Source: Microcoleus sp. bin48.metabat.b7b8b9.023
GTDB lineage: Bacteria; Cyanobacteriota; Cyanobacteriia; Cyanobacteriales; Microcoleaceae
DNA: 64,000 nt
Reading direction: 5' to 3'
Assembly: GCF_013299185.1 (NCBI RefSeq)
Contig: NZ_JAAFKG010000008.1
Coordinates: 39,823 to 103,822 of the forward strand
In this document: positions 4,406-20,718 of the stretch, in pieces
Layout of the letters: every line of letters starts with the position of its first letter
Numbering within the stretch: position 1 is the stretch's first letter
The notes under the pieces: generated by a model
What the model saw: only the letters and a program-made list of their open reading frames with translations
Told to the model about the DNA's origin: nothing
Databases searched by the model: none
Translations under genes and position numbers: made by a program

Positions 4406-7400
4406 ATGAATATGTTTCCTAAACCGCTGAATCGCTTTGCTACCAAAATTATCGGCAAAGCTCCATTACAAACTGTGCTCGTGCTTCCTTTTTTAGTGCA
4501 AATTGTTGGCATAGTAGGAGTTGTAGGTTGGCTGTCGTTCCAAAACGGTCAGCGCGCGGTCAACGATGTGGCCGCTCAGTTGCGACAAGAAATTAGCAAC
4601 CGAGTTTACGATCGCGTCAAAAGCTACCTCCAAGTTCCCCAACAAGTCAATCAAATTAACTATTATGCCCTGCAACAGGGCTTGTTAGACTTTCAAAAAC
4701 TCTCAGAAGCTGAACTTTATTTTTGGCGGCAAGTTCAAGCTTTCCCTTCTTTAGGCAATGCTGGCCTTGCCAATGCAGAAGGTCAATCTTTCCGTGTCGG
4801 TTGGATCGATAGAGAATCAACTTCGGAACAACCGCAGATTGCAGAACAACTGACCCCAGGTGGCGGCGATCTTTACTACTACAACATCGACAATAATGCC
4901 AACCGCGTCAAACTTGCTAAAAAAGTTCCTAACTACGATCCACGTAACCGTCCTTTTTATACGAGTGCTATCAAGCAAGGAAAGCCTACTTGGAGCGAAG
5001 TTTACATAAATTTTGGCTATAACGTGCTGCAAATAAAAGCGAGCAGACCTTTTTATAATAGCAGTGGCAAACTGTTAGGAGTTATCGCCTCTGAATTGGG
5101 AATCAACCAAATTAGTCATTTTTTGCAAACGCTAAAATTTGGTCGTTCAGGGCAAGTATTTATTCTCGAACCGACAGGTGATTTAGTGGCAAGCTCGATT
5201 AAAAGTCAAGCCATATTAACGGGAAAAGCCAAAGATTCCAAACGCATTCAAGCAGTAAACAGCGATAATTTAATTATGCGCTCTAGTGTTGCTTTTTTGA
5301 AAAATCACTTCGTCAGTTTAAAAAATATTCAGCAAAACTATCAATTTGAATTTAAGATCGACGGGCAACAAGAATTTCTCCAAGTTTTTCCCATTACTGA
5401 CGAATACGGCTTAAATTGGCTGGTTGTGGTGGTTGTGTCAGAGTCTGATTTTATGGAGCAAATTAACTCTAATACGCGCACGACGATTTGGCTGTCGGTT
5501 GCAGCTTTGATAACAGCGACAATTCTAGGGATTCTGACTGCGAAATGGGTGGTGCGACCGATTTTAATGTTAAATTTGGCCGCGAAAGCTTTGGCGAGCA
5601 ATGAGTGGGATACAAAATTAGTGAGTTATCGTTCTGACGAACTCGGAGAACTTGCCACTGCTTTTAACAGCATGGCAGAGCAATTGCAGCATTCATTTAC
5701 TTCGCTCTCGGAAAGTGAAAGCCGAGTTAAACAATTTCTCGATGCAGTACCGCTAGGCATTTTTATTGTCGAAAAAAATGGTAAACCTCACTACATTAAT
5801 CCTATAGGAGAGCAACTTTTTGGTCAAGGAATCATAGCAGCAGATGCCGAAAATTTGCGCCAAGCTTACAAAGTTTATTTAGCTGGAACCCAGGAAATTT
5901 ACCCGGCGGAACACGACCCTATTTTAAATGCTTTGCAGGGCAAAAGTGTCACTGTCGATGACATGGAAATCTCCTCCAGTGACAAAACTGTTCCCCTACA
6001 AGTTTGGGGAACTCCTATTTACGACGCCCAAGGACATATTATCTACGGGATGTGCGCTTTTCAAAATATTACGGAACGCAAACAAGCGGAGCAACTGTTA
6101 AAAGAATACAACCAAAACTTAGCAGTGCAAGTTGCAGAACGTACCGCCGCTCTTGCCAAGGCAAAAGAAAAGTTTTCTAAAGCTTTTCGTTCTAGTCCAA
6201 ATGCAATTACGATCACGAGAATCAGTGACGGTCGCCACATAGAAGTTAATGAAAGCTTTTGCCGGATGATTGGCTACACGCACGACCAAATTATTGGCAA
6301 AACAGCCGTAGATCTGAATTTTTGGGCGAGTCTAGGAGAGCGCGATCGCATGATTCAAATGTTAAGAAACCAGACAGCCCTTCACAATTACGAGCTGAGA
6401 TTTCGCAAAAAAAACGGTACAGAAAGAACTGCCCTGCTGTCTATTGAAACCATCGATATTGACGGAGAAGCTTGTTTTCTCTCGATTTCGAGCGATATTA
6501 CCGATCGCCAAAAAGCAGAAACCGCCCTCCGCGAAGCAGAAGAAAAGTATCGCAACATTTATGAAAACGCTTTGAATGGCATTTTTCAAACTGCTGCTGA
6601 CGGGACATACCTCAGCGCCAACCCCGCTTTAGCTGAACTCTACGGTTACGAATCGCCCGCAGAATTAATCGCAGCACAGCCGAATTTCAAGAACCAGCTT
6701 TACGTGAAACCCAACCGCCGCAGCGAATTTGTAGCGCTGATCGACGAGTACGGGATACTGTCTAACTTTGAATCGGAAATTTACCGCAAAGATGGTAGCA
6801 TCATCTGGATTTCCGAAAATTGTCGGGCCGTGTGCGATCCCGCAGGAAATCTACTTTATCACGAAGGTTTTATTAAAGATATTACGGATAGCAAACAAGC
6901 ACAAATCAAAATGGAGCAGGCGAAAGAAGCCGCCGAAGCAGCCAACAAAGCTAAAAGTACGTTTCTCGCCAATATGAGCCACGAATTGCGATCGCCCCTG
7001 AACGCAGTCATCGGCTTTGCTCAAGTCATGATCCGCAGTAAAAATTTGTCTCCCGAAAATCAAGAAGATGTCGGGATTATCCTGCGGAGCGGCGAGCATT
7101 TGCTGACGTTAATTAACCAAGTTTTAGACTTGTCAAAAATTGAAGCCGGACGCACTACCATTAATGAAAAAAGTTTCGATTTATACCGACTTCTCGACGA
7201 TTTAGAAGATATGTTTGCTCTCAAAGCTGAGGAAAAAGACTTGCAATTAATCTTCGATCGAGATGCAGAAGTTCCCCATTACATTTCCACAGATGAAGTG
7301 AAATTGCGCCAAGTATTAATTAATTTGCTCAACAATGCAATTAAATTTACTTCACAAGGTGGAGTGTCTGTGCAAGTGAAAGGAGGAAAGCGGAATTTAC

Positions 7401-8371
7401 ACAAAAACAGCGCTGATGAAATGCCCGGCCGCTACTCGCTTCACTTTGAAGTTCAAGATACTGGTGCAGGCATTGCCACCGAAGAAATCCATCAGTTGTT
7501 TGAAGCATTTGTGCAGACAACAACGGGTAAAGATTCTCAAGAAGGCACGGGTTTAGGTTTAGCGATCAGCCGCCAGTTCGTGCAATTGATGGGAGGTGAA
7601 ATTACTGTTAGCAGCGAGGTGGGCAAGGGTGCGCTATTTCAGTTTGACATCCAAGTTCACCTGGTGGAAGCTAGTGATATTGAAAGCAAAAAAGCTCTAC
7701 GTCGAGTTGTTGCCCTCGAACCGAATCAGCCACCTTACCGCTTGCTAATTGTGGACGACAAACCTTTGAACCGCCAACTGTTAGTAAAACTTCTCAGTCC
7801 GTTGGGATTTCTGTTGAGAGAAGCGAATAACGGTCAAGAAGCGGTGGATATTTTTAGGGATTGGGAACCGCATCTAATTTGGATGGACATGAGAATGCCT
7901 GTAATGGACGGGTACGAGGCAACGAAACAGATTAAAACTACAACTGGCGGGCAAGCAACGGCGATTGTTGCCCTGACTGCTAGTGTTTTGGAGGAAGAAC
8001 GGGCGGTGATTCTTTCGACGGGTTGCGATGATTTTATGCGGAAACCGTTCCGAGAGGAAGATATCTTTGCGGCCATGGGGAAACATTTAGGAGTACGCTA
8101 TATTTATGAAGAGCCAACAGAGGTCAGTATGGGGGGTGCGGGGGAGTCTAGTCAGGATGTGCTGACACCAGAGGCGATCGCCTCTCTTTCTCCAGACTGG
8201 AGGGTTCAATTCAAGCAAAATATTTTGAGTGTAGACATGGAGGCGATCGCCAGTTCGATCGCACAAATCGGCACTATCAACCCCTCTCTGGCTGCCACGC
8301 TTCAAGATTGCATTAATAATTTTGAATATGACAGAATTTTGACCATAATCGAGCGCAGCGAACAACAGTAA
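4406..8371 (+). CDS. Membrane hybrid histidine kinase (Cache-HAMP-PAS3-HK-REC)
   Basis: A 1321-residue sensor kinase. TM1 (about 22-44) and TM2 (about 360-383) bracket a large extracytoplasmic Cache-type sensor domain (RPFYTSAIKQGKPTWSEVY, SGKLLGVIASELG). HAMP follows (about 384-435), then three PAS domains (about 440-560, 590-705, 715-835), HisKA with His859 in MSHELRSP, and HATPase with LINLLNNAIKFT, DTGAGI and GTGLGLAIS. The C-terminal receiver has Asp1161 (WMDMRMP) and a RKPF lysine. The last 130 residues form a tail shared with the three hybrid kinases downstream (MEAIASSIAQI here, SADFDLIARTIEQ in those). ATG 4412 is an alternative start. Only 6 bp separate it from the next kinase gene, so co-transcription is likely. 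The ligand is unknown. Confidence 0.93.
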   Translation: MNMFPKPLNRFATKIIGKAPLQTVLVLPFLVQIVGIVGVVGWLSFQNGQRAVNDVAAQLRQEISNRVYDRVKSYLQVPQQVNQINYYALQQGLLDFQKLSEAELYFWRQVQAFPSLGNAGLANAEGQSFRVGWIDRESTSEQPQIAEQLTPGGGDLYYYNIDNNANRVKLAKKVPNYDPRNRPFYTSAIKQGKPTWSEVYINFGYNVLQIKASRPFYNSSGKLLGVIASELGINQISHFLQTLKFGRSGQVFILEPTGDLVASSIKSQAILTGKAKDSKRIQAVNSDNLIMRSSVAFLKNHFVSLKNIQQNYQFEFKIDGQQEFLQVFPITDEYGLNWLVVVVVSESDFMEQINSNTRTTIWLSVAALITATILGILTAKWVVRPILMLNLAAKALASNEWDTKLVSYRSDELGELATAFNSMAEQLQHSFTSLSESESRVKQFLDAVPLGIFIVEKNGKPHYINPIGEQLFGQGIIAADAENLRQAYKVYLAGTQEIYPAEHDPILNALQGKSVTVDDMEISSSDKTVPLQVWGTPIYDAQGHIIYGMCAFQNITERKQAEQLLKEYNQNLAVQVAERTAALAKAKEKFSKAFRSSPNAITITRISDGRHIEVNESFCRMIGYTHDQIIGKTAVDLNFWASLGERDRMIQMLRNQTALHNYELRFRKKNGTERTALLSIETIDIDGEACFLSISSDITDRQKAETALREAEEKYRNIYENALNGIFQTAADGTYLSANPALAELYGYESPAELIAAQPNFKNQLYVKPNRRSEFVALIDEYGILSNFESEIYRKDGSIIWISENCRAVCDPAGNLLYHEGFIKDITDSKQAQIKMEQAKEAAEAANKAKSTFLANMSHELRSPLNAVIGFAQVMIRSKNLSPENQEDVGIILRSGEHLLTLINQVLDLSKIEAGRTTINEKSFDLYRLLDDLEDMFALKAEEKDLQLIFDRDAEVPHYISTDEVKLRQVLINLLNNAIKFTSQGGVSVQVKGGKRNLHKNSADEMPGRYSLHFEVQDTGAGIATEEIHQLFEAFVQTTTGKDSQEGTGLGLAISRQFVQLMGGEITVSSEVGKGALFQFDIQVHLVEASDIESKKALRRVVALEPNQPPYRLLIVDDKPLNRQLLVKLLSPLGFLLREANNGQEAVDIFRDWEPHLIWMDMRMPVMDGYEATKQIKTTTGGQATAIVALTASVLEEERAVILSTGCDDFMRKPFREEDIFAAMGKHLGVRYIYEEPTEVSMGGAGESSQDVLTPEAIASLSPDWRVQFKQNILSVDMEAIASSIAQIGTINPSLAATLQDCINNFEYDRILTIIERSEQQ

Positions 8372-8377
8372 ATACCG

Positions 8378-9802
8378 ATGAATTTAACTTTACCCAACAC
8401 CAATCGAGCTAATATTTTAGTGGTGGACGACACGCCACAAAACCTGCGGCTGCTGGCAGGAATTTTGAGCGACAAAGGCTATCAAGTTCGCCCGGTTCCC
8501 AACGGCAAGCTAGCACTGTCTGCCGCTCAAAAAATGCCCCCAGATATAGTCCTGCTGGATATTATGATGCCGGAGATGGATGGCTATGAAGTTTGTCAGC
8601 ACCTCAAAGATTCTGAAGTAACAAAAGACATCCCGGTGATTTTCATCAGTGCGATTAACGACGTGATGGATAAAGTTAAAGCTTTTGCAGTTGGGGGAGT
8701 GGACTTTATTACCAAACCGTTTCAGGTTGAAGAAGTTTTAGCCCGCATCGAAACTCATTTAAAAATTTGTTCGTTGCAACAAAGTTTGCAAGAAAAAAAT
8801 CAAGATTTAGCAACTGCTATCTACCAATTGCAAGCGACACAAGAGCATTTGATTCAATCGGAAAAAATGGCGGCACTGGGACAACTGATTGCCGGCATTG
8901 CCCACGAAATCAATACTCCGCTGGGCATCATAGGTTCATCTATCGATAATATTTCTAATTTTTGGGACGAAAATTTAGAAAAAATGCCTCAATTTTTTCA
9001 ACAACTTTCTGAAGAAAGCCAAGCTTGTTTTTTAGCTTTGCTGCACAGATCTATAAATCACGAAACGCTATTTACTAGCAGAGAAAAGCGCAAAATTAAG
9101 CAGCAGTTGACTAACGAGTTGATGGCAGGAGGCATTGAAAATGCGGAAGAAATAGCGGATAGTTTAGTTGACATGGAGATTTACGATCGCATAGAAGAAT
9201 TGTTGCCATTTTTTAAATTGCCGGATTGGGAAGTGGTTTTCAATACTGCTTACCAGTTTGCGAGCTTTAAAAAAAGTATTAGCCTGATCCAAAGAGCGAC
9301 AGCCAAGTCGGGAAAAGTAGTATTTGCCTTAAAAAGCTACGCTCATTTCGATAGCAAGCAAGAAAAAGTGCAGGCGAACTTGCATGATGGCATTGAAATG
9401 GTGTTAACTCTTTATCAAAATCAACTGAAACACGGCATAGAAGTAGTCAAAAACTATGGAGATTTACCGAAAATTATGTGCTATCCCGATGACTTAAATC
9501 AAGTTTGGACAAATCTAATTCACAATGCCCTGCAAGCAATGGATTATAAAGGTATTTTGACGATTGAAACTAAGCAGCAAGAGACAAATCTTGTCCTCAA
9601 ATTTACTGATGACGGCAAAGGTATTCCCCCAGAAGTTATTCCCAAAATTTTTCACCCATTTTTTACGACTAAATCTGCGGGGGAAGGTAGCGGTTTGGGA
9701 TTGGACATCGTGAGAAAAATTGTTGACAAACATGAAGGTACAATTGCTGTAGAGTCGGTACCGGGACAGACAAGCTTTACAGTCTCCCTCCCAATCTATT
9801 AA
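8378..9802 (+). CDS. Soluble REC-histidine kinase
   Basis: A 474-residue cytoplasmic protein. The N-terminal receiver (about 11-128) has VVDDTPQN, Asp61 in LLDIMMPEMDG and the KPF lysine. A coiled coil (about 132-165) leads into a HisKA domain with His176 (AGIAHEINTPLG) and a long helical insert (about 190-300). The ATPase has LIHNALQAM, DDGKGIPP and GSGLGLDIV. The REC-first layout is common in cyanobacteria, where such a kinase receives phosphate from an upstream kinase and passes it on. It follows the membrane hybrid kinase by 6 bp. It has no membrane segment. Confidence 0.92.
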   Translation: MNLTLPNTNRANILVVDDTPQNLRLLAGILSDKGYQVRPVPNGKLALSAAQKMPPDIVLLDIMMPEMDGYEVCQHLKDSEVTKDIPVIFISAINDVMDKVKAFAVGGVDFITKPFQVEEVLARIETHLKICSLQQSLQEKNQDLATAIYQLQATQEHLIQSEKMAALGQLIAGIAHEINTPLGIIGSSIDNISNFWDENLEKMPQFFQQLSEESQACFLALLHRSINHETLFTSREKRKIKQQLTNELMAGGIENAEEIADSLVDMEIYDRIEELLPFFKLPDWEVVFNTAYQFASFKKSISLIQRATAKSGKVVFALKSYAHFDSKQEKVQANLHDGIEMVLTLYQNQLKHGIEVVKNYGDLPKIMCYPDDLNQVWTNLIHNALQAMDYKGILTIETKQQETNLVLKFTDDGKGIPPEVIPKIFHPFFTTKSAGEGSGLGLDIVRKIVDKHEGTIAVESVPGQTSFTVSLPIY

Positions 9803-10116
9803 ACTAAACTTACACCTGTTAAAAAAAGAATGCCACTGTCAGCAAGCACCAAACCCCGATTGTCATCAGTGATACCCAATCGAACATCCCCAATCCTCCA
9901 ATGCCAAAATGGTATTATCCGCAGGGGCTGATTCCCGATAGCGACAGGGGCTGTCTCGCTGACAAACATAAGATTTATTGCGATTGACCGGGTTTCTTTT
10001 GTGAAGTTCTATTAAAATAAAATAGGGGACATAGATAGTGCATCCTCGCCCCAAATCAATAACACAGAAGCAAGTCATGTCGGTAAACCCATTAAAATAA
10101 TAGCAGAGAGCAAAAG
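9803..10116. other. Intergenic region, no gene supported
   Basis: 314 bp between the REC-kinase and the response regulator. A short inverted motif (GCGACAGGGGCTGTCTCGC, around 9940-9958) and AT-rich stretches (AAAATAAAATAGGGG) are present. No coding frame or recognised RNA was seen. An internal promoter for the downstream genes is possible. Confidence 0.4.
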
Positions 10117-10512
10117 ATGAATAAGCCTGTAATTCTTTGCGTTGACGATGAACCCGATATCTTGAAGACTCTCAAGATGCAGCTCAAGAATGAATTTAAA
10201 GATGATTATTTTTACGAATTAGCTGAAAGTGGTGATGAAGCTTTAGATTTACTGGAGGAGTTTCCAGCAGAAGCTGAGGTGATTGTGGTTGTTTCTGATT
10301 GGCTGATGCCGGGAATTAAAGGTGACGAACTGTTAATTAGAGTTCACCAAAAATATCCTAAAATCGTTAAGGTGATGTTGACGGGGCAAGCGGATAAAGC
10401 TGCTCTTCAGCGGGCAGTAGAAGAAGCCGATTTATACTGCTGTTTGTACAAACCGTGGAAAAGTAAAGAGTTAATAGATACGATCAAATCTGGGCTGGCA
10501 AAGTTATTATGA
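10117..10512 (+). CDS. Single-domain response regulator
   Basis: A 131-residue protein made only of a receiver domain. It has the acidic pair in CVDDEPD, phospho-acceptor Asp61 in VVSDWLMPGIKGDE, the switch threonine in VMLTGQAD and Lys in YKPW. The LTGQAD/KPW pattern resembles the RpfG/HD-GYP receiver subgroup and closely matches the N-terminal receivers of the three hybrid kinases downstream. Its stop codon overlaps the next gene's start (ATGA at 10509-10512), which implies translational coupling. With no output domain, it probably shuttles phosphate between the neighbouring kinases. Confidence 0.93.
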   Translation: MNKPVILCVDDEPDILKTLKMQLKNEFKDDYFYELAESGDEALDLLEEFPAEAEVIVVVSDWLMPGIKGDELLIRVHQKYPKIVKVMLTGQADKAALQRAVEEADLYCCLYKPWKSKELIDTIKSGLAKLL

Positions 10513-13001
10513 AAAAACCTGTGATTGTATGTATTGATGACGAACCTGATGTTTTGAACAGTTTAAAGATTGAACTGAAAAAGGCGATCGGGGATCGGTG
10601 TATTATTGAAACGGCTGAGGGGGGGGAAGATGCTTTAGAGTTACTGGAAGATTTGCAGGCGGATGAATACGAGATTGCGTTGGTGCTTTCCGATTATATT
10701 ATGCCGGATATTAAAGGGGATGAACTGCTTAAAAAAATTCACGAACGATCGCCCGATACGCTGACTATTATGCTGACTGGGCAAGCTGATTTGGAAGCTC
10801 TGAGCAATGCTATAAAGTATGCTAAATTGTACCGTTACATCCCTAAACCTTGGCACAATGAAGATTTGAAATTAACGGTAGTAGAAGCAATTCACAGTTA
10901 CTTGCAAGACCAAAAGTTAACAGATGAAATCCTGAAGCGGCAAGAAGTAAATGCGGCGCTGTCGGCGAGCGAAAGCCGCCTGAACCAATTTTTAGCAGCT
11001 CTGCCCGTGGGGGTATCTGTTTACAATCCCGACGGCTCGATCGCCTATTTCAACCAAGCAGCGCGGGATTTGCTGGGTGCAGACACTATCCCGGAAAGCA
11101 CTGCGGAACAATTAGCTGCAACTTATCAACTTTATGTTGCCAATACTGATGAGCTTTACCCGCCGGACAATCTACCAATTTTGCGCGCGCTCAAAGGAGA
11201 ATTTGTCAGGGTTGACGATGTAGAAATCCGTCAAGATGGCAAAATAATTGCGATCGAGATCAATACTACCCCAATTTTTGACGCTAGGGGAAATATTGTT
11301 TATGCGATCGCAGCTTTTCAAGATATTACCGATCGCAAACGAGCCGAAAAAATACTAGCAGATTACCAGCACACCTTAGAAACCAAAATAGACGAACGCA
11401 CAGAACAACTGCAACAAGCCGCCTTAGCTGCTGAAGCTGCAAACAAAGCTAAAAGCACGTTTTTGGCCAATATGAGCCATGAATTGCGGACTCCTCTCAA
11501 TTCGATACTGGGGTTTGCACAAATCATGGAAGGCAGCTCCAATTTTACTGTCGAAAACCACGAAAATCTGAGTATTATTCGCCGCAGTGGCGAACACTTG
11601 CTGGCCCTGATCAATGAAGTTTTAGACTTGTCAAAAATTGAAGCGGGGCGGATGATACTTGACCCTAAAGACTTCGACTTATACCGCTTGCTTGACGATT
11701 TACAAGATATGTTTCAAATGCGGGCAAAGAATCAAGAGGTTCAGTTGCTTTTTCAGCGAGCAAATGACGTTGCCCAGTATGTGCGAACCGATGATGTCAA
11801 ACTGCGGCAAGTGCTGATAAATATTCTCAGCAATGCAATTAAGTTTACGGAACAAGGTTCGATCGTTTTAAGGGTTTCACAATTAGAAAAATCTAGAATA
11901 GTTGATTTATTGGGGAATCCCACAGCTTGCATTGATACTACAAAAAGTATTAGAGACTTTGCCACCAATAGAATTGATGTGGCAACTGTTGTACCCACAG
12001 ATGAGCCTGATGATTTAACTGACGAGCGGGTAATTTTCCTTCAGTTTGAAATAGAAGATACAGGCGTTGGTATTGCTTCGGAAGAATTGGGGAATATTTT
12101 CAAGGCATTTGTGCAAACATCTTCGGGTCAAAGAACTCAAAAGGGTACGGGTTTGGGATTGACTATTACCCGTCAATTTGTCCGGCTGATGGGAGGAGAA
12201 ATCGTCGTAGAAAGTGAATTAGAACGCGGCACAAATTTTAAATTTGAGATTCCAGTAGGTGTGGTTGATGTTGCTAATATTCCTGCCCCAGAAATTAACC
12301 GGGAAGTTACTGGGTTGGAACCAAATCAACCCTGCTATCGAATTTTAATTGTAGACGATCGCGAAGACAACCGCCAACTTTTAGTCAAAATTCTTTCTCC
12401 CTTGGGTTTTGGAGTGCGAGAGGCTAGCGATGGCTGCGAAGCAATAGAAATATGGGAAAATTGGCAGCCGCATTTAATTTTGATGGATCTGCGAATGCCA
12501 GTGATGGACGGCTATGAAGCTACTAAAGAAATTAGGAACAGAATACAGCAGCAAGAGCAAGAGCGACAAGAAAACGGCTCTGTGATTCCGAAGATTGTTG
12601 CTTTGACAGCTAGCACTATTGAAGAGAAACGATCGTCTGCTTTATCTATAGGCTGCGACGATTTTATTAGCAAACCTTTCCGCAAAACTGATATATTTGA
12701 TACGCTCCACAAACATTTGGGAGTGAGGTACCTCTACTCTTACTCAACTGATTTTATCCCAACGGGCGATCGCCACAATCAATCTGACGCTACCTCTAAT
12801 GCTGCGCTTGCTTACTCGCCCGCACTTCCCGCAGAATGGATAGAAAACATGAGGCAGGTAATACGTAGCGCTGATTTTGACTTAATTGCGAGGACGATCG
12901 AGCAATTAAGGTACGATCGTCCTGAATTTGCCGAAATCCTCCAGGATCATCTCAATAATTTTGACTACCAGAAAATTCTTACTTTAATTGCCGAGGCATA
13001 A
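10509..13001 (+). CDS. REC-PAS-HK-REC hybrid kinase, paralog 1
   Basis: An 830-residue cytoplasmic hybrid kinase. Receiver 1 (about 3-125) has Asp62 and Lys113. A short coiled coil leads to a PAS domain (about 152-280). HisKA carries His324 in NMSHELRTPL. The ATPase has LINILSNAIKFT (about 436-447), DTGVGI (about 517) and GTGLGLTIT (about 546). Receiver 2 (about 610-735) has Asp660 in LILMDLRMPVMDG and a SKPF lysine. A helical tail of about 95 residues follows. A polar insert of about 50 residues (460-508) splits the ATPase domain. Two further copies lie directly downstream. The start overlaps the stop of the response-regulator gene. Confidence 0.93.
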   Translation: MKKPVIVCIDDEPDVLNSLKIELKKAIGDRCIIETAEGGEDALELLEDLQADEYEIALVLSDYIMPDIKGDELLKKIHERSPDTLTIMLTGQADLEALSNAIKYAKLYRYIPKPWHNEDLKLTVVEAIHSYLQDQKLTDEILKRQEVNAALSASESRLNQFLAALPVGVSVYNPDGSIAYFNQAARDLLGADTIPESTAEQLAATYQLYVANTDELYPPDNLPILRALKGEFVRVDDVEIRQDGKIIAIEINTTPIFDARGNIVYAIAAFQDITDRKRAEKILADYQHTLETKIDERTEQLQQAALAAEAANKAKSTFLANMSHELRTPLNSILGFAQIMEGSSNFTVENHENLSIIRRSGEHLLALINEVLDLSKIEAGRMILDPKDFDLYRLLDDLQDMFQMRAKNQEVQLLFQRANDVAQYVRTDDVKLRQVLINILSNAIKFTEQGSIVLRVSQLEKSRIVDLLGNPTACIDTTKSIRDFATNRIDVATVVPTDEPDDLTDERVIFLQFEIEDTGVGIASEELGNIFKAFVQTSSGQRTQKGTGLGLTITRQFVRLMGGEIVVESELERGTNFKFEIPVGVVDVANIPAPEINREVTGLEPNQPCYRILIVDDREDNRQLLVKILSPLGFGVREASDGCEAIEIWENWQPHLILMDLRMPVMDGYEATKEIRNRIQQQEQERQENGSVIPKIVALTASTIEEKRSSALSIGCDDFISKPFRKTDIFDTLHKHLGVRYLYSYSTDFIPTGDRHNQSDATSNAALAYSPALPAEWIENMRQVIRSADFDLIARTIEQLRYDRPEFAEILQDHLNNFDYQKILTLIAEA

Positions 13002-13023
13002 AAATAGCATGGTAGAGTTCATC

Positions 13024-13160
13024 AGTTGACAGTTGACAGTTGACAGTTGACAGTTGACAGCTACCTCTTCCATCGATAGAAGAGGATTGGAGCAATGAAT
13101 CATTTTGTTTGATTTCCCCCGTTTAGGGGGAGGCTTCAGATCCAATTTTCAGGCGTGAAG
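13024..13160. repeat. Spacer copy 1: GTTGACA microsatellite plus hairpin
   Basis: Within the 327-bp gap after hybrid kinase paralog 1. Five GTTGACA repeats (13024-13060) are followed by a block with an AGAAGAGGATTGGAG start and a CCCCCGTTTAGGGGG hairpin (about 13117-13131). The same composite recurs after paralog 2 at 15951-16093. The rest of the gap (13161-13328) has no gene; it holds one HIP1-like site and an A-rich leader. Confidence 0.85.
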
Positions 13161-13328
13161 GTCGATCGGGAAATTTCCTCTAGAGGATCACATTGAAATG
13201 GCGATCGAGATTCAACTCAATCTAGTGTTACCCAAAAAAGTTGGTAAAAAAAATCGGTTGAAATCTGATTCTTTACCAAAATTGTAGCAGCAAAGAGAGA
13301 AGCAAAAAAAACTCCGGGAAGCAAAATC

Positions 13329-15968
13329 ATGAAAAAACCTGTGATTGTTTGTATTGATGACGAAGCTGATGTTCTGAACAGTTTAAAGATTGAACTAAAA
13401 AAGGCGATCGGCGATCGGTGTATTATTGAAACAGCGCAAGGAGGAGAAGATGCTTTAGAGTTATTAACAGATTTACAGGCGGACGAACACGAAATAGCTT
13501 TAGTCGTTTCTGATTATATCATGCCGGATATCAAAGGAGACGAACTGCTCCAAATAATTCATGAACGATCGCCCAATACGCTGAAAATTATGCTGACTGG
13601 TCAAGCAGATTTAGAGGCAGTGAGTCACGCTATCAAGTATGCCAAGCTGTACCGCTACATCCCCAAACCTTGGCAAAAGGAAGATTTGAAGTTAACAGTA
13701 GTAGAAGCAGTTCACAGCTATTTGCAAGACCAAAAGTTGGCTGATGAAGTTATTAAGGGGCGAGAAGCAAACAAGCAGTTGCAGATAGTAAACCAGGAAT
13801 TGTCGGCGAGTGAAAGCCGGTTAAATCAATTTTTAGCAGCTTTGCCTGTGGGGGTATCTGTTTACAATCCCGACGGCTCTATCGCCTATATCAATCATGC
13901 CACCAACCAGTTGCTGGATGCAGATACTGGCTTGGCAGACAGTATGCTAGGCAACAGTGTTGAACAATTAGTTGCAGGTTCTCAATTTTATGACGCCGAA
14001 AACGATCGGCTGTATTTCCCTGAAAATTTTCCGATCTTGCGGGCGCTGAGAGGGGAATATGTCAAGGTGAATGAAGTTGAAATCCTTCAATACGGGCTGA
14101 CAATCACTCTAGAAATAAGTGCCACACCCATTTTTGACGGCAACGGAAATATTGTTTTTGCGATCGCAGTTATTCAAGACATCAGCCAGCGCAAAGAATT
14201 AGAAAATTTCCTATCCAATTACCAGCGCACCTTAGAAGCTGAAATTGTAGAACGCACAGAACAACTGCAAAAAGCTGCCTTCGCCGCCGAAGCAGCAAAC
14301 AGAGCGAAAAGTACCTTCCTTGCCAACATGAGCCACGAGTTGCGTACACCCCTCAATGCCATACTCGGCTTTACTCAAATCGTCGAACCCAGCCCGAATT
14401 TGACAGTAGAAGACCGAGAAAATATCAGAATTATTTACCGCAGCGGCGAACACTTGCTGACTTTAATCAATCAAGCTTTAGACTTGGCAAAAATCGAAGC
14501 GGGGCGGATGACACTTCTTCCGACTAACTTTGACCTTTACTGCTTGCTTGACGAATTGCAAGAAATGTTTGACCTGCGAGCGAAAAATCAAGATTTGCAG
14601 TTGATTTTCCAGCGCGATGCTGACATTCCGCAGTACGTGCGAACCGATGAAGTGAAGCTACGCCAGGTGCTAATCAATCTTCTGAGTAATGCCATGAAAT
14701 TTACTCAAATCGGCGGGGTGTCAGTAAGAGTGCGCCGGAAGTTAGAAGGTATTTCAGCAGCGAATTCGATCGCGAATATAGCCGAAATAAGCGATGAAGG
14801 GGAAATTGTCAGTCCCTTGAAAAATTCGACAGATTCAGATTTAGAAGCAAGCAATTATCCAGGAAATCCTATAATTTCCCGTCAGTCTGAAAGTAAAGTA
14901 TTGGCAAGAATGGATAATTTAAATATTTCTAATTCTCTGTTTTTGGAGTTTGAAATAGAAGATACGGGAGTTGGTATTGCCCCAGAAGAAATGGGCAATC
15001 TTTTTCAAGCATTTGTGCAGACAGCATCCGGTCAAAAAGCTCAACAAGGTACTGGTTTGGGATTGACAATTAGCAATGAATTTGTACGGTTAATGGGTGG
15101 CGTTCTAACTGTAGAAAGCCAGCTAGAACGGGGTACTATTTTTAGATTTGACATAGAAGTTAGTGCAGTTGATGCCGCTGCAATTGCCACTCCAAAAATC
15201 ATCCGTGAGGTGATTGGAATGGAACCCGATCAGCCATACTATCGAATTTTAATTGTGGACGATCGCACAGACAACCGCAAACTGTTAGTCAAAATGCTTT
15301 CTGGCTTGGGTTTCGGAGTCGAAGAGGCTAGCAACGGCCGTGAAGCGGTAGAAATGTGGGAAAATTGGCAGCCGCACTTGATTTTGATGGATTTGCGAAT
15401 GCCGGTGATGGACGGCTACGAAGCGACGATCGAAATTAGATCGAGGATACAGCGGAGAAAGGAAGAGGAACAAGGCGAGGGGAAGATGGATATTCCCAAT
15501 CCTCAATTCCTGAACCCGAAGATTGTTGCTTTAACAGCTAGTACCCATGAAGAGAAACGCGCTTTTTCTTTGTTGATGGGTTGTGATGACTTTATCAGAA
15601 AACCTTTCCGCAAAATGGATATATTTGATACGCTGAGCAAACATTTGGGGGTGAGTTATATCTATTCTGAATTGACAGGATCTGATTCAATGCCCGAGCG
15701 CAATAACCTATCTGATTCTTCTAATACTTTGTCTGCTTCTTTGCCCAACCTTCCCGCAGAATGGATGGATAATATGAGGCAGGTAATTCGCAGTGCTGAT
15801 TTTGACTTAATTGCGAGGACGATCGAGGAAATAAGGGATGCTCATCCTGAATTTGCCGACATCCTTCAAGGTCATCTAGAGAATTTTGATTACCAAAAAA
15901 TTCTCAACTTAATTATCGAAGCAGAGAAATTTAATAGTACGGGTGATCAGTTGACAGTTGACAGTTGA
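13329..15968 (+). CDS. REC-PAS-HK-REC hybrid kinase, paralog 2
   Basis: An 879-residue paralog of the preceding hybrid kinase. Receiver 1 has Asp62 and Lys113 (YIPKPW). The PAS domain is about 162-292. HisKA has His336 (NMSHELRTPL). The ATPase has LINLLSNAMKFT and GTGLGLTIS, with a serine/asparagine-rich insert at about 470-536. Receiver 2 has Asp688 (LMDLRMPVMDG) and a RKPF lysine. The final residues DQLTVDS and the stop codon are encoded by the GTTGACA microsatellite, so the C-terminus is longer than in paralog 1. The start ATG is placed by alignment with paralog 1 (MKKPVIVCIDDE). Confidence 0.93.
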   Translation: MKKPVIVCIDDEADVLNSLKIELKKAIGDRCIIETAQGGEDALELLTDLQADEHEIALVVSDYIMPDIKGDELLQIIHERSPNTLKIMLTGQADLEAVSHAIKYAKLYRYIPKPWQKEDLKLTVVEAVHSYLQDQKLADEVIKGREANKQLQIVNQELSASESRLNQFLAALPVGVSVYNPDGSIAYINHATNQLLDADTGLADSMLGNSVEQLVAGSQFYDAENDRLYFPENFPILRALRGEYVKVNEVEILQYGLTITLEISATPIFDGNGNIVFAIAVIQDISQRKELENFLSNYQRTLEAEIVERTEQLQKAAFAAEAANRAKSTFLANMSHELRTPLNAILGFTQIVEPSPNLTVEDRENIRIIYRSGEHLLTLINQALDLAKIEAGRMTLLPTNFDLYCLLDELQEMFDLRAKNQDLQLIFQRDADIPQYVRTDEVKLRQVLINLLSNAMKFTQIGGVSVRVRRKLEGISAANSIANIAEISDEGEIVSPLKNSTDSDLEASNYPGNPIISRQSESKVLARMDNLNISNSLFLEFEIEDTGVGIAPEEMGNLFQAFVQTASGQKAQQGTGLGLTISNEFVRLMGGVLTVESQLERGTIFRFDIEVSAVDAAAIATPKIIREVIGMEPDQPYYRILIVDDRTDNRKLLVKMLSGLGFGVEEASNGREAVEMWENWQPHLILMDLRMPVMDGYEATIEIRSRIQRRKEEEQGEGKMDIPNPQFLNPKIVALTASTHEEKRAFSLLMGCDDFIRKPFRKMDIFDTLSKHLGVSYIYSELTGSDSMPERNNLSDSSNTLSASLPNLPAEWMDNMRQVIRSADFDLIARTIEEIRDAHPEFADILQGHLENFDYQKILNLIIEAEKFNSTGDQLTVDS

Positions 15969-16093
15969 CAGTTGACAGTTGACAGTTGACAGCTACCCAT
16001 AGCAGTCGATAGAAGAGGATTGGAGGAATGAATCATTTTGTTTGATTTCCCCCGTTTAGGGGGAGGCTTCAGATCCAATTTTCAGGGGTGAAG
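15951..16093. repeat. Spacer copy 2: GTTGACA microsatellite plus hairpin
   Basis: Second copy of the spacer at 13024-13160. It begins inside the end of paralog 2 (15951-15968) and continues through GTTGACA repeats, the AGAAGAGGATTGGAGG block and the same CCCCCGTTTAGGGGG hairpin. Beyond it, 16094-16397 holds no recognised gene; it is AT-rich leader sequence for paralog 3. Confidence 0.85.
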
Positions 16094-16397
16094 TCTGAAA
16101 AAAAATCTCTGGATGACTGATGGCTAAAAATAATAGATACAATTCATCTTTAGTGGTGGCAATATCAAAATTTTAGACTAGACTTGAATTGCAGTCATTC
16201 ACAAACAATCTTGAAATTATCTACATCGCTTACCAGTTTCTCTGTAAATCAAACAATCATGCAAAAGCTCTCAATTTTATCTGTGGTGTAAATCTAAAAT
16301 CAACTTTCTGACTGGGGTGGCAAGGCAGTGAAACTGGCAAAAAAAGCGAAACCAAACAACTCTTTTTGCCTTGAATAAGTAAATATTCAACAAAAAA

Positions 16398-19085
16398 ATG
16401 GCAAATAAATTTATGAAGAAACCTGTGATTGTTTGTATAGATGACGAGCCTGATGTTTTGGAAAGCTTAAAGATTGAGCTCAAAAAGGCGATCGGCGATC
16501 GGTGCATTATTGAAACGGCAGAAGGTGGAGAAGATGCTTTGGAATTGCTGGCAGATTTGCGGGCTGATGAGCATGAAATAGCTTTGGTGCTTTCCGATTA
16601 CATCATGCCGGATATTAAAGGGGACGAGCTGCTCAAACAAATTCACGAACAATCGCCCGATACGCTGACTATTATGCTGACGGGACAAGCCGATTTACAA
16701 GCTCTGAGCAACAGCATCAAGTATGCTAAGTTGTACAGATACATCCAGAAACCTTGGCAAGATGAAGATTTGCAAATAACAGTAGTAGAAGCAATACACA
16801 GTTATTTGCAAGACCAAAAATTAACAATTGAAACTATCAAGCGACAACAAGCCAACGAGGAGTTAAAGAGAGTCAATGCGGAGTTAGAGGTGGTAAACGC
16901 AGACTTGAAGCTAGCCAATGAGGAATTATCTGCGAGTGAAAGTCGGCTGAATCAATTTTTAGGAGCTTTGCCGGTGGGGGTATCTGTTTACAATCCCGAT
17001 GGCTCGATCGCGTATTTGAATCATGCAGCGCAGGAATTGCTTGATTCACAAACTGTCCTCGCGAGGGCTGCCCAAACATGGCGTGGAATGGATCAATTTT
17101 ATAACGGCGAGAGCGATCGCCTATATTTTCCTGAAAATTTTCCGATTTTACGGGCGCTGAGAGGGGAATCTGTCAAAGTTGATGATGTTGAAATCACTCA
17201 ATACGGTTTGATAATTACTTTAGAGGTAACTGCTACGCCAATTTTTGACAGCAGCGGAAATGTTGTTTTTGCGATCGCAGCTATTCAAGACATCAGCGAG
17301 CGCAAAGAAGCAGAAAGAGTCCTCGCAAATTACCAGCGTACCTTAGAAGCTGACATTGTGGAACGCACAGAACAACTGCAACAGGCTGCATTAGCTGCCC
17401 AAGCAGCAAACAGAGCAAAAAGTACGTTTCTCGCCAACATGAGCCACGAGTTGCGTACCCCCCTCAATGCCATACTCGGTTTTACTCAAATCGTCGAATC
17501 TAGCCCGAATCTAACAGCAGACGATCGAGACAATATCAGAATTATTCACCGCAGCGGCGAACACTTGCTGACTTTAATCAATCAAGCTTTAGACTTGGCA
17601 AAAATCGAAGCGGGCCGGATGATTGTTTTTCCGACAAACTTCAATCTCTACGACTTGCTTGACGAAATGGAAGATATGTTTCAACTACGAGCGAAAAATC
17701 AAGGTTTGCAGTTAGTTTTCCAGCGAAATACAGATGTTCCGGAGTACGTGCGAACTGATGAGGTAAAACTGCGCCAAGTGCTAATCAATCTCCTCAGTAA
17801 TGCCATGAAATTTACCAGAGTTGGCGGGGTATCTGTAAGAGTGAGGCCTCTTAGGCAAGGCAGTTCGGCGGGGACAGATGTAGGGGATGTCATGGATGTG
17901 ACAGATAGAAGTAATAGAGAAGAAGCAAGAGGAAATGATTCAGAAGGCGAAATTGTCATTGCCGCTGAAAGTCCTACAAATTTAGATGGTTCGACAAGTT
18001 ACACTCTGCCTGAGAGTGGAAATTTGACGGAGAATAATTTAGATTTGTCTGGTTCGTTGTTTCTGCAATTTGAAGTAGAAGATACAGGAAGTGGCATTTC
18101 TCCCGAAGAATTGGGCAAGGTTTTTCAAGCCTTCGTGCAAACAGAATCCGGTCAAAAAGCTCAAAAAGGGACGGGTTTAGGCTTGACGATCAGCAGCCAA
18201 TTTGTACGGCTAATGGGCGGCAATATTACTGTGGAAAGCGAGCAAAATCGAGGTACGATTTTTAGATTTGAGATTGAAGTTGATGCAGTTGATGCCGCTT
18301 CGATTCCTACCCCGGAAATCAGCAGCCAGGTGATGGGAGTGGAACCAGATGGGATTTCCTACCGGATTTTAGTTGTGGACGATCGCAAAGACAACCGCCA
18401 ACTTTTAGTCAAAATGCTTTCTCCCTTGGGTTTTGCAGTGAAACAGGCTAGCAACGGCCGTGAAGCGGTAGAAATGTGGGAAAACTGGCAGCCGCACTTA
18501 ATCTTGATGGATTTGCAAATGCCGGTGATGGATGGCTGCGAAGCGACGATGGAAATTAGACTCAGGATACAGCAGAGACAGTCCAAGCAAGCAATGGGGG
18601 AGGAAATCAACGTCTCTGGTGTCAAACCTCTGATTCCGAAGATTATTGCTTTGACAGCTAGTACCATTGAAGGGAGGCGATCGTTTGCTTTATTCGTCGG
18701 CTGCGACGATTTTATTAACAAACCCTTCCGCAAAAATGATATCTTTGATACTCTTCACAAACATTTAGGGGTGAAGTATCTATACTCTAACTCAACGGAT
18801 TTGATGTCAGCGGGCGATCGCCACAATCTATCTGACTCCCAGTCTAATGATGCGCTTGCTTATTTACCCATACTTCCCGCACAATGGATAGATAACATGA
18901 GGCAGGTAATCCGCAGTGCTGATTTTGACTTAATTGGGATAACAATCGAGGAAATAAGGGATGCTCATCCTGAATTTGCCGAAATCCTCCAGGGTCATCT
19001 CGATAATTTTGATTACCAGAAAATTCTCAATTTAGTTGCCGAGGCGGAGGAATCAGATCGTGGAGATGAAGGCGGAACAAACTGA
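16398..19085 (+). CDS. REC-PAS-HK-REC hybrid kinase, paralog 3
   Basis: An 895-residue paralog. Receiver 1 has Asp67; the lysine loop reads YIQKPW rather than YIPKPW. A longer coiled coil (about 140-180, with NEELKRVN and NAELEVVN-like heptads) precedes PAS (about 183-305). HisKA has His350. The ATPase has LINLLSNAMKFT and GTGLGLTIS, with the longest polar insert of the three (about 482-552). Receiver 2 has Asp705 (LMDLQMPVMDG) and an NKPF lysine. The homologous start in the sister genes would be ATG 16413 (MKKPVIV). Its 3' end overlaps the cyclase gene, which implies coupled translation. Confidence 0.93.
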   Translation: MANKFMKKPVIVCIDDEPDVLESLKIELKKAIGDRCIIETAEGGEDALELLADLRADEHEIALVLSDYIMPDIKGDELLKQIHEQSPDTLTIMLTGQADLQALSNSIKYAKLYRYIQKPWQDEDLQITVVEAIHSYLQDQKLTIETIKRQQANEELKRVNAELEVVNADLKLANEELSASESRLNQFLGALPVGVSVYNPDGSIAYLNHAAQELLDSQTVLARAAQTWRGMDQFYNGESDRLYFPENFPILRALRGESVKVDDVEITQYGLIITLEVTATPIFDSSGNVVFAIAAIQDISERKEAERVLANYQRTLEADIVERTEQLQQAALAAQAANRAKSTFLANMSHELRTPLNAILGFTQIVESSPNLTADDRDNIRIIHRSGEHLLTLINQALDLAKIEAGRMIVFPTNFNLYDLLDEMEDMFQLRAKNQGLQLVFQRNTDVPEYVRTDEVKLRQVLINLLSNAMKFTRVGGVSVRVRPLRQGSSAGTDVGDVMDVTDRSNREEARGNDSEGEIVIAAESPTNLDGSTSYTLPESGNLTENNLDLSGSLFLQFEVEDTGSGISPEELGKVFQAFVQTESGQKAQKGTGLGLTISSQFVRLMGGNITVESEQNRGTIFRFEIEVDAVDAASIPTPEISSQVMGVEPDGISYRILVVDDRKDNRQLLVKMLSPLGFAVKQASNGREAVEMWENWQPHLILMDLQMPVMDGCEATMEIRLRIQQRQSKQAMGEEINVSGVKPLIPKIIALTASTIEGRRSFALFVGCDDFINKPFRKNDIFDTLHKHLGVKYLYSNSTDLMSAGDRHNLSDSQSNDALAYLPILPAQWIDNMRQVIRSADFDLIGITIEEIRDAHPEFAEILQGHLDNFDYQKILNLVAEAEESDRGDEGGTN

Positions 19086-20718
19086 AAACTATCAAGCAGA
19101 TATTTTAGTAGTTGACGATACGCCAGACAATCTGCGTTTGTTGATTAGAATCTTGCAAAAAAATGGCTATAAAGTTAGACCTGTTACTAATGGTTTTTCG
19201 GCTATAGATGCAATTCAGTCTAGCGTCCCAGATTTGATTTTGCTGGATATTATGATGCCGGATATTAACGGTTATGAATTATGTCAAAAACTGAAAGTAC
19301 AACCGCAATTTAGCGAAATTCCCATCATTTTTATCAGCGCGTTAGAAGAAGGAATAGATAAGGCAAAAGCTTTTGAAGTAGGCGGAGCAGATTATATCAC
19401 AAAACCTTTTCAGGTGAAAGAAGTATTGGCGCGAGTGAGCAATCAACTGACCGTGCGTTCTTTGCAAATGCAACTGCAAGAAAAAAATCAAAAATTGACC
19501 GATCAAAATGTCCAGTTGCACCAGGAAATTGCCGAACGCCGTCAGGTTGAAATGGAAACAAGATTGCTGCTGGAGGCAACTCAAGCTATTAGCAAATCTG
19601 ACAATTTTGAGTCGGCTATAGATGTGATTTTAGGTTTAATTTGCCAAACTATTGAATGGAATCTGGGCGAAGCTTGGATTCCTAACAGTGACGGCGTTTT
19701 AAGATGTGCTAGAGGCAGGTACGTCAGCGATTCGAGTTTTGCCCAATTCCGACAGACAAGTTGGCAGCTAACTTTTGCTCCTGGTGTGGGACTCCCAGGG
19801 AGGATTTGGCAGTCGCAGCAGTCCGAATGGATCGAGGATGTTTCTACTGCACCGGAACAAGTGTTTCTGCGATCGGAAATTGCGGTAAATGTGGGATTGA
19901 AAGCAGCTTTTGGTTTGCCAATTTTGGCGGAAAATCAAGTGTTAGCTATTTTGATTTTTTATCGCGAAAAAGTTCTGGAATCTCAGCCGCGCTTGCTGGA
20001 ATTGGTGAGTGCGGTTGCTACGCAGCTCGGTTCGCTGATTCAGCGGAAACAAGCTGAAGCAGCGCTGAAAGTGCAGCAAGAGCAAACAGAGAAATTGCTG
20101 CTGAATATTTTGCCTAAACCTATTGCTGAGCGCTTGCAAAAAGGCCAAAACCCGATCGCGGATCATTTTGATGAGGTGACGGTATTGTTTGCTGATTTGG
20201 TGGGTTTTACAGAGTTTTCGGCTCACAAAAGTCCGACGCAGTTGGTAGAAATTTTGAATGGAATTTTCTCGGAGTTCGATCGGTTGTCTGAGTTGCACGG
20301 GTTGGAAAAGATTAAGACGATTGGGGATGCTTACATGGTGGTTGGGGGTTTGCCGACGGCGCGCCAAGATCACTCTGAGGCGATCGCACTTTTAGCTTTG
20401 GATATGCAGGCAGCTTTGAGAAAGTTTAATCTCAAAATTGGAGAAGGTTTTCAATTGCGGATCGGAATTCACAGCGGTTCGGTGGTGGCGGGAATTATTG
20501 GGATTAGCAAATTTAGCTATGATTTGTGGGGAGATACTGTGAATGTTGCTTCGCGGATGGAGTCGAACGGATTGCCGGGTAAAATTCAAGTGACGGCGAA
20601 GACTTACGAGCGTTTGAAAGAGCAGTTTATTTTTGAAGAACGGGGGCCTATCACGGTTAAAGGTAAAGGAACAATGCTGACTTACTGGTTGCTCGAAGAA
20701 CAAACTCAATCTATTTAG
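19066..20718 (+). CDS. REC-GAF class III adenylate cyclase
   Basis: About 550 residues from ATG 19066; in-frame TTG 19036 and GTG 19060 are alternatives, and GGAGGA at about 19045 fits GTG 19060. The receiver (about 11-128) has Asp61. A coiled coil and a GAF domain (about 165-328) follow, then a class III cyclase domain (about 368-540). Metal ligands Asp377 (VLFADLVGF) and Asp421 are present. Lys417 (KIKTIGD) and Asp486 (SYDLWGD) are the adenine-selecting pair. Asn493 and Arg497 (NVASRM) are the transition-state residues. It should make cAMP under control of phosphorylation, comparable to cyanobacterial CyaC but without its own kinase. Its start lies 20 bp inside the upstream kinase gene. Confidence 0.92.
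   Translation: MKAEQTENYQADILVVDDTPDNLRLLIRILQKNGYKVRPVTNGFSAIDAIQSSVPDLILLDIMMPDINGYELCQKLKVQPQFSEIPIIFISALEEGIDKAKAFEVGGADYITKPFQVKEVLARVSNQLTVRSLQMQLQEKNQKLTDQNVQLHQEIAERRQVEMETRLLLEATQAISKSDNFESAIDVILGLICQTIEWNLGEAWIPNSDGVLRCARGRYVSDSSFAQFRQTSWQLTFAPGVGLPGRIWQSQQSEWIEDVSTAPEQVFLRSEIAVNVGLKAAFGLPILAENQVLAILIFYREKVLESQPRLLELVSAVATQLGSLIQRKQAEAALKVQQEQTEKLLLNILPKPIAERLQKGQNPIADHFDEVTVLFADLVGFTEFSAHKSPTQLVEILNGIFSEFDRLSELHGLEKIKTIGDAYMVVGGLPTARQDHSEAIALLALDMQAALRKFNLKIGEGFQLRIGIHSGSVVAGIIGISKFSYDLWGDTVNVASRMESNGLPGKIQVTAKTYERLKEQFIFEERGPITVKGKGTMLTYWLLEEQTQSI

Follow-up and report, generated by a model that had tools for sequence, protein, structure and literature searches.

In this study, a stretch of 64,000 nucleotides (nt) from the filamentous cyanobacterium Microcoleus sp. 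bin48.metabat.b7b8b9.023 (contig NZ_JAAFKG010000008.1, positions 39,823 to 103,822), here called the window, was found to contain a block of seven signaling genes that begins with a membrane Cache hybrid histidine kinase and ends with a REC-GAF-cyclase. Our preferred reading, which we hold with moderate confidence, is that the block encodes a colinear His-Asp chain that sets cyclic AMP (cAMP), that its three tandem kinase copies work in parallel, and that the sensor of the leading kinase was replaced by recombination and probably responds to a different ligand. The two points most worth the attention of specialists are a type rule that links kinases to the receivers of neighboring genes and a natural sensor replacement.

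Seven open reading frames (ORFs), called here g1 to g7, occupy positions 4406 to 20718 in the same orientation. All positions are in window numbering, all seven genes are on the + strand, and gX denotes the gene type of which g4, g5, and g6 are copies.

4406..8371, +: g1, membrane Cache-HAMP-3xPAS-HisKA-HATPase-REC hybrid kinase; DHp type 1 (HELRSPLN)
8378..9802, +: g2, REC-histidine kinase (REC-HisKA-HATPase); DHp type 2 (HEINTPLG)
10117..10512, +: g3, lone receiver (REC); its stop overlaps the g4 start (ATGA)
10509..13001, +: g4, gX copy 1, REC-PAS-HisKA-HATPase-REC; DHp type 1
13329..15968, +: g5, gX copy 2, tandem paralogue, REC-PAS-HisKA-HATPase-REC
16398..19085, +: g6, gX copy 3, tandem paralogue, REC-PAS-HisKA-HATPase-REC; 20-nt overlap with g7
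19066..20718, +: g7, REC-GAF-class III cyclase (Guanylate_cyc)

The start of g7 was taken as the ATG at 19066; the mechanical ORF list begins this gene at 19036. Spacings from g1 to g7 are +6, +314, −4, +327, +429, and −20 nt. An earlier note on this DNA, made from the sequence without database searches, had described seven co-oriented genes with at least one receiver each and with starts that overlap at 10509 to 10512 and at 19066, and ORF calling and Pfam confirmed these genes, their orientation, and their domains; Pfam also placed the membrane Cache hybrid kinase at the head of the row and the REC-GAF-cyclase at its end, as the note had it. All five kinases (g1, g2, and g4 to g6) have H, N, and G boxes, including g2, whose HisKA match (22.9 bits) nevertheless falls under the curated cutoff of 26.9. 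Phospho-acceptor Asp motifs were located by pattern in g3 to g6 and by eye in g1, g2, and g7. In class III cyclases, a Lys/Asp pair selects adenine. The catalytic domain of g7 is PF00211 (226.8 bits), and Lys417 and Asp486, counted from the ATG at 19066, occupy the adenine-selecting places at the numbers that the note had given; by domain and residues, g7 should be a class III adenylate cyclase, and cAMP synthesis is predicted.

The block is one form of a locus conserved across the genus, with a core of five genes (g1, g2, g3, gX, and g7). A g7 match with 78 to 98% identity was present in 27 of 28 other genomes of the genus (partial in G028, in two pieces in G024), and no match at that level was found in G003, which is 74% complete. 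Six of the matches (G006, G015, G021, G022, G023, and G025) show one internal stop, and their open frames nonetheless span 549 to 570 amino acids. Gene neighborhoods were compared at 27 loci, 26 from the same genus and one (L144) from another; contig ends cut four of the 26 (L122, L132, L136, and L145), leaving 22 readable through g1. The order and strand of g1-g2-g3-gX-g7 could be recognized in 21 of them; L129 had no g3 call, and L134 had its g2 as two ORFs. Locus L126 (G020) is decayed, having lost g2, g3, and most of g1, with a g7 90% identical to that of the window; it keeps a shortened gX of 660 amino acids. The ATGA overlap between g3 and gX occurred in all 21 genus orthologues examined, and gX overlapped g7 in 23 of 24 cases measured, the Met nearest the receiver being taken as the start. 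For g2 to g7, ratios of nonsynonymous to synonymous substitution (dN/dS) between the window and L119 or L125 ranged from 0.13 to 0.34, a level typical of purifying selection; g1 gave 0.43 and 0.27. Because the core is conserved across the genus, the block is not a chance assembly. The number of gX copies varies: among the 22 loci, 17 (L126 included) have one, three (L134, L135, and L140) have two, and two (L119 and L125) have three, and the window strain is a third with three copies. The seven-gene unit of the earlier note thus consists of real genes, and its natural core is five genes with one to three copies of gX.

The kinases and receivers of the block fall into types, and the same types recur in matched neighbors at other loci. 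Receiver and DHp class models were trained only on the window block and its genus orthologues and were applied to 158 other loci, with L001 to L010 and the block orthologues L119 to L145 excluded. The test loci comprised 78 named loci (L011 to L088), 40 around cyclases (32 from the window genome and 8 from others), and 40 around gX-type receivers, the last hand-picked (one from the window genome, one from another genome of the genus, and 38 from elsewhere in the order). A pair consisted of a kinase gene and a co-oriented gene no more than 600 nt downstream whose protein has a receiver at its N terminus; single-domain receivers were skipped. Among 81 raw pairs, type 1 kinases preceded g2/g7-type receivers 47 times and gX-type receivers never (47/47), and type 2 kinases preceded g2/g7-type receivers once and gX-type receivers 33 times (33/34). 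When pairs were merged wherever both partners were at least 50% identical, 41 pairs from 34 loci remained, with counts in the same order of 26, 0, 1, and 14 (Fisher test, 4e-10), so that the rule held in 26/26 type 1 pairs and 14/15 type 2 pairs. A g3-like receiver lay between the partners in 9 of the 14 de-duplicated type 2 pairs and in none of the 26 type 1 pairs.

Two controls bear on this association. Comparison of the receiver and the kinase within the same protein showed no association, with counts of 16, 16, 15, and 6 raw (p = 0.16) and 6, 4, 5, and 3 after de-duplication (18 proteins; p = 1). Comparison in reverse order, of the receiver of one gene with the kinase of the next, likewise gave none, with 5, 10, 4, and 1 raw (p = 0.13) and 4, 3, 4, and 1 after de-duplication (p = 0.58; only 12 pairs). 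For upstream kinases that carry their own N-terminal receiver, the forward rule holds (11, 0, 1, and 3; p = 0.009). Since the within-protein and reverse-order controls lack the association, it links neighbors and, to the extent that the small reverse control can show, is directional. The window genome has further examples: a type 2 kinase followed by a g3-like receiver and a cyclase with a gX-type receiver occurs in L173 (twice), L177, and L181, and in L172 the same string is preceded by a Cache hybrid kinase and a REC-kinase. In L158, a type 1 hybrid kinase stands directly before a g7-like REC-GAF-PAS-cyclase. Locus L211, from a genome of another family (G169), has the g1-g2-g3-gX gene types in the same order, with a g1-like kinase that has no PAS domains and with two more hybrid kinases following instead of a cyclase.

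The second main result concerns the sensor of g1.

4586..5425, +: sensor segment of g1, apparently replaced; about amino acids 61 to 340, nearly the entire extracytoplasmic dCache

Compared with its nearest relative (L119), g1 is 44% identical in the Cache domain, 85% in the transmembrane (TM)/HAMP region, and 98 to 100% in every other domain. Native Cache domains from the 21 of 27 neighborhoods with a full g1 (that is, without L122, L126, L132, L136, L144, and L145) are 74 to 98% alike and 40 to 46% identical to that of the window. Taken in steps of 10 codons, DNA identity to L119 is 90 to 100% up to amino acid 60, 33 to 63% from 61 to 340, 57 to 90% from 341 to 420, and 93 to 100% beyond, which places breakpoints near 4590 and 5425; the GC content falls to 0.36 at 5000 to 5399. 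The nearest relative of the sensor, 87% identical over the segment, is in L195 of strain G015 (listed as 86% complete with 7% contamination), where it is part of a PAS-HK-Cache-HAMP-cyclase protein (HK, histidine kinase); DNA identity over amino acids 61 to 340 is 80 to 100%, save for two steps (77 and 70%). The second nearest, at 65%, is in L248 of G098 and has the same domain plan. A further Cache family at 50 to 55% occurs in many strains, mostly in ORFs of 666 to 775 amino acids; its sole member scanned, L198, has a SpoIIE phosphatase as its last domain. Neither a second copy of the window Cache (next best, 41 to 42%) nor a native-type sensor (best, 50%) was found elsewhere in the window genome, and paralogous misassembly of the sensor was rejected on these grounds. 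Given a foreign-type Cache inside a native g1, the breakpoints, and the lack of other copies in the genome, recombination is the most likely origin of the segment. As a separate observation, the H box of L195:1-3567 seems by eye to be without its histidine, and L195 is possibly a pseudokinase-cyclase fusion.

The residues of the ligand pocket point to a change in what is sensed. Passages of two sources on PctA, a dCache_1AA amino acid receptor, give the residues Y121, R126, W128, Y129, Y144, and D173 (PMC10104139, PMC11245519). Alignments to PctA place these residues, and D146 was added by our own counting. The native g1 sensor of L119 can be aligned with PctA, and the seven PctA-like residues (YRWYYDD) are present in each of the 21 native sensors compared, as expected of dCache_1AA; the window sensor, like that of L195, reads YRFYYNE and departs from this set. 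Three of the seven residues (two of the six named in the sources) are thereby changed: Trp128 to Phe, Asp146 to Asn, and Asp173 to Glu. The window domain retains the dCache fold, its model (mean pLDDT, 84) matching dCache structures. The native g1 sensors are predicted to be amino acid sensors, and because the pocket residues are kept in the natives and changed in the window, the window sensor is probably not an amino acid sensor, or is an altered one, with a ligand different from that of its relatives. The Trp-to-Phe and Asp-to-Glu changes are conservative, which tempers this prediction. The proposal of the earlier note that a Cache signal is turned into cAMP is consistent with the parts present, although the signal in the window strain is probably unlike that of its relatives, the sensor having apparently been swapped.

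The three gX copies of the window are 63 to 90% identical to one another in the first receiver (REC1), PAS, DHp, and C-terminal receiver (REC2) and 54 to 60% identical in the ATPase domain; gX paralogues from the same genome are 71 to 94% identical in DHp and 50 to 82% in the CA domain. Pieces of gX shorter than 600 amino acids (L122 and L136) were excluded from trees. In the full-length tree, g4 grouped with single copies, and g5 and g6 grouped with the copies of L134, L135, and L140; in the PAS and kinase trees, the single copies of L137, L138, L139, L141, and L142 fell nearer the g5/g6 side. The REC1 and PAS trees placed the first copies of L134, L135, and L140 with g5 and the second copies with g6, and the REC1 tree placed both the second and third copies of L125 with g6. 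In the trees of the kinase and the C-terminal receiver, the two copies of L134 and the two of L135 clustered by genome (support, 0.77 to 0.99), as did those of L140 in the C-terminal receiver tree (0.88). Our reading is that the copies have different inputs and a common output and that some gene conversion has occurred; the trees support this unevenly, and it is a secondary point.

We hypothesize that g1, through its Cache domain and type 1 kinase, would phosphorylate the receiver of g2, that the type 2 kinase of g2 would phosphorylate g3 as well as the receiver at the N terminus of gX, and that the type 1 kinase of gX would phosphorylate the receiver of the cyclase g7, with cAMP as the output. 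The proteins g2 and gX would be adapters in which a receiver of one type is combined with a kinase of the other type, and the three gX copies would be parallel, differently tuned branches of one step. Recombination would have replaced the g1 sensor with a Cache whose nearest two relatives found belong to Cache-HAMP-cyclase proteins, and the chain in the window strain would now probably answer a different ligand. Gene content, its conservation, the variation in gX copies, the matching of types at other loci, and the foreign-type sensor are seen in the sequence; the phosphotransfer steps, their direction, the cAMP output, the ligand change, and recombination as the origin of the swap are what we infer. 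A broader statement, namely, that gene order is wiring order, with each kinase preceding the gene of its target receiver, that two incompatible kinase/receiver dialects alternate and are translated by adapters, and that the window strain has exchanged, near the domain borders, an amino acid sensor for one of another ligand class, is offered more tentatively, at somewhat less than even confidence. In passages of one source, Spirulina responded to added cAMP with increased gliding motility and mat formation, and the phytochrome-like kinase AphC purportedly phosphorylates and activates the cyclase CyaC (PMC4284465); on this analogy, motility is a plausible output of the chain.

Several observations weigh against the colinear chain. 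One de-duplicated pair (L219) breaks the type rule, and the only kinase neighboring the gX-type REC-cyclase of L227 is of type 1 and lies downstream. Within the block itself, g4 to g5 and g5 to g6 violate the rule, a misfit that is expected of tandem copies working in parallel. No typed kinase was present in the same run for 14 of 37 REC-cyclase genes, which is not a test of the rule; the corresponding figure for gX-type genes was 3 of 41. Type matching is not the same as phosphotransfer, and it could be partly the inheritance of old neighbors despite the collapse at 50% identity; related genomes persist among the collapsed pairs, the loci were chosen by similarity to g7 or to the receiver of gX, and the reverse control is small. 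By type, the receivers of g2 and g7 suit the kinases of g1 and gX alike, so that g1 could be acting directly on g7. Neither g1 nor gX has a partner assigned to its C-terminal receiver, and gaps of more than 300 nt occur at three places (314, 327, and 429). As for the sensor, the TM/HAMP region to its right has also diverged from L119 (85%), which makes the right border less sharp than the left, and the segment may reflect an assembly error or may be a chimera with foreign reads.

The strongest rival is that the inputs sum at the cyclase, with the type 1 kinases g1, g4, g5, and g6 all phosphorylating the g7 receiver and with g2 and g3 as a side branch. We regard this as unlikely, though well short of negligible: g1 and gX do have kinases of the type found before g7-type receivers, and the arrangement of L158 suits it, but g2 lies between g1 and g7 with a receiver of the type that type 1 kinases precede. 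A type 1 kinase followed by a REC-type 2 kinase also occurs in L172, L211, L221, L224, L226, L228, L233, and L237, and in 6 of these 8 loci a g3-like receiver and a gX-type receiver come next. That the genes are unconnected two-component pairs, each wired separately and held together by common inheritance or coexpression only, strikes us as improbable. The gaps of more than 300 nt at g2-g3, g4-g5, and g5-g6 would fit such juxtaposition, and coincidental juxtaposition is named as an alternative for alternating loci in a passage of PMC3018481; the order is nevertheless conserved throughout the genus with its overlaps kept, and directional type matching extends over 41 de-duplicated pairs from 34 loci.

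The earlier note had called the block a phosphorelay, and in the sense that involves a histidine phosphotransfer (HPt) domain this did not stand, since no HPt lies within the block, by Pfam and by genome search. A classical relay would then have the C-terminal receivers of g1 and gX feed a distant HPt that serves g7. The genome does offer 15 HPt matches, among them hybrid kinases near cyclases on contigs C44 and C82, and four block proteins have a receiver near the C terminus; the tail after the last receiver, however, has no invariant His in 26 sequences, and its model, with three main helices, gave no significant structural match, so that we give this arrangement little credence. The same structural comparison weakly excluded the tail as a degenerate HPt; among 37 weak matches, the HPt of Escherichia coli YojN ranked second (E = 4.1). 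As to the branched or amplified relay that the note had also proposed, comparative evidence links neighbors as kinase-receiver pairs; a linear chain in which one step has parallel copies describes the block better than free branching.

CyaC has the architecture REC-HK-REC-cyclase. Like CyaC of Arthrospira and Anabaena, the block places a class III adenylate cyclase with a controlling receiver below a histidine kinase; unlike CyaC, it spreads these parts over several genes and adds two kinase tiers. The protein g7 has no histidine kinase in its own polypeptide, Pfam finding only REC-GAF-cyclase, and is not of the CyaC type. The remark of the earlier note that parts fused in CyaC-type proteins are here split was fair, as a fused REC-GAF-HK-REC-cyclase is present in the same genome (C31, L176). 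Transmitters and receivers alternate within this one locus, as the gene list and Pfam show. Such loci were described by Williams and Whitworth in 2010, who suggested relays with a second transmitter in the place of HPt and cited redCDEF, a four-component system of Myxococcus xanthus, in which the second transmitter gets its phosphate from a receiver; the 200-bp cutoff given there would split the block into four foci (PMC3018481). In comparison with redCDEF, the block has more tiers, a cyclase output, REC-kinase adapters, and tandem copies, and it is known from sequence alone. It is a longer variant of these alternating loci that adds a cyclase output, adapter proteins, and the type rule. The GacS-type multikinase network likewise has several hybrid kinases with one output, and the work on this GacS-GacA network describes evolutionary kinship between kinase and receiver domains as a predictor of partners and used engineered receiver swaps (PMC8175716); in contrast, the members of the block are encoded together in the presumed signal order, and its swap is natural and in the sensor. 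No prior report of the type rule or of this natural sensor swap was recognized in the open-access literature at the level of listings.

Two further features lie in the longest gaps of the block, g4-g5 and g5-g6, each of which contains one copy of a dispersed repeat that stands outside the signaling unit.

13073..13160, no strand: 88-nt dispersed repeat, g4-g5 gap
16006..16093, no strand: 88-nt dispersed repeat, g5-g6 gap; second copy, 98% identical to the first

A shared regulatory element was considered for this pair and rejected, the copies being scattered through the genome: at least 41 matches were found with 40 of 132 candidates scored, 10 of them at least 88% identical over at least 76 nt. 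Tandem heptamers (TTGACAG) immediately precede each copy, at about 13023 to 13060 and 15948 to 15992. Promoter-like sites (42, against a shuffled mean of 30.6, standard deviation [SD] 6.1) and terminator-like sites (21, against 19.2, SD 4.1) were not used. The window genome (G000; 7.5 Mb, 125 contigs) has 40 class III cyclase family matches and at least 151 receiver matches (150 of 191 candidates scored). On its contig C54 (L171:2884-16452), three Cache-HAMP-HK-REC-cyclase fusions stand close together on one strand, a whole pathway within single proteins and in triplicate.

The partners of many cyanobacterial kinases are hard to guess, and a directional type rule yields concrete and falsifiable predictions of partners at dozens of loci, among them chains with a cyclase at the end. 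The range of one to three gX copies shows a signaling tier that is being expanded or contracted. The sensor swap, with its junctions near the borders of the extracytoplasmic domain, indicates how nature may build chimeric receptors; it predicts that two near-identical strains differ in the ligand sensed and would allow tests of how bacteria rewire their senses. If the colinear reading is true, long signaling chains would be readable straight from DNA, and the window strain would be a natural experiment at the head of one such chain.

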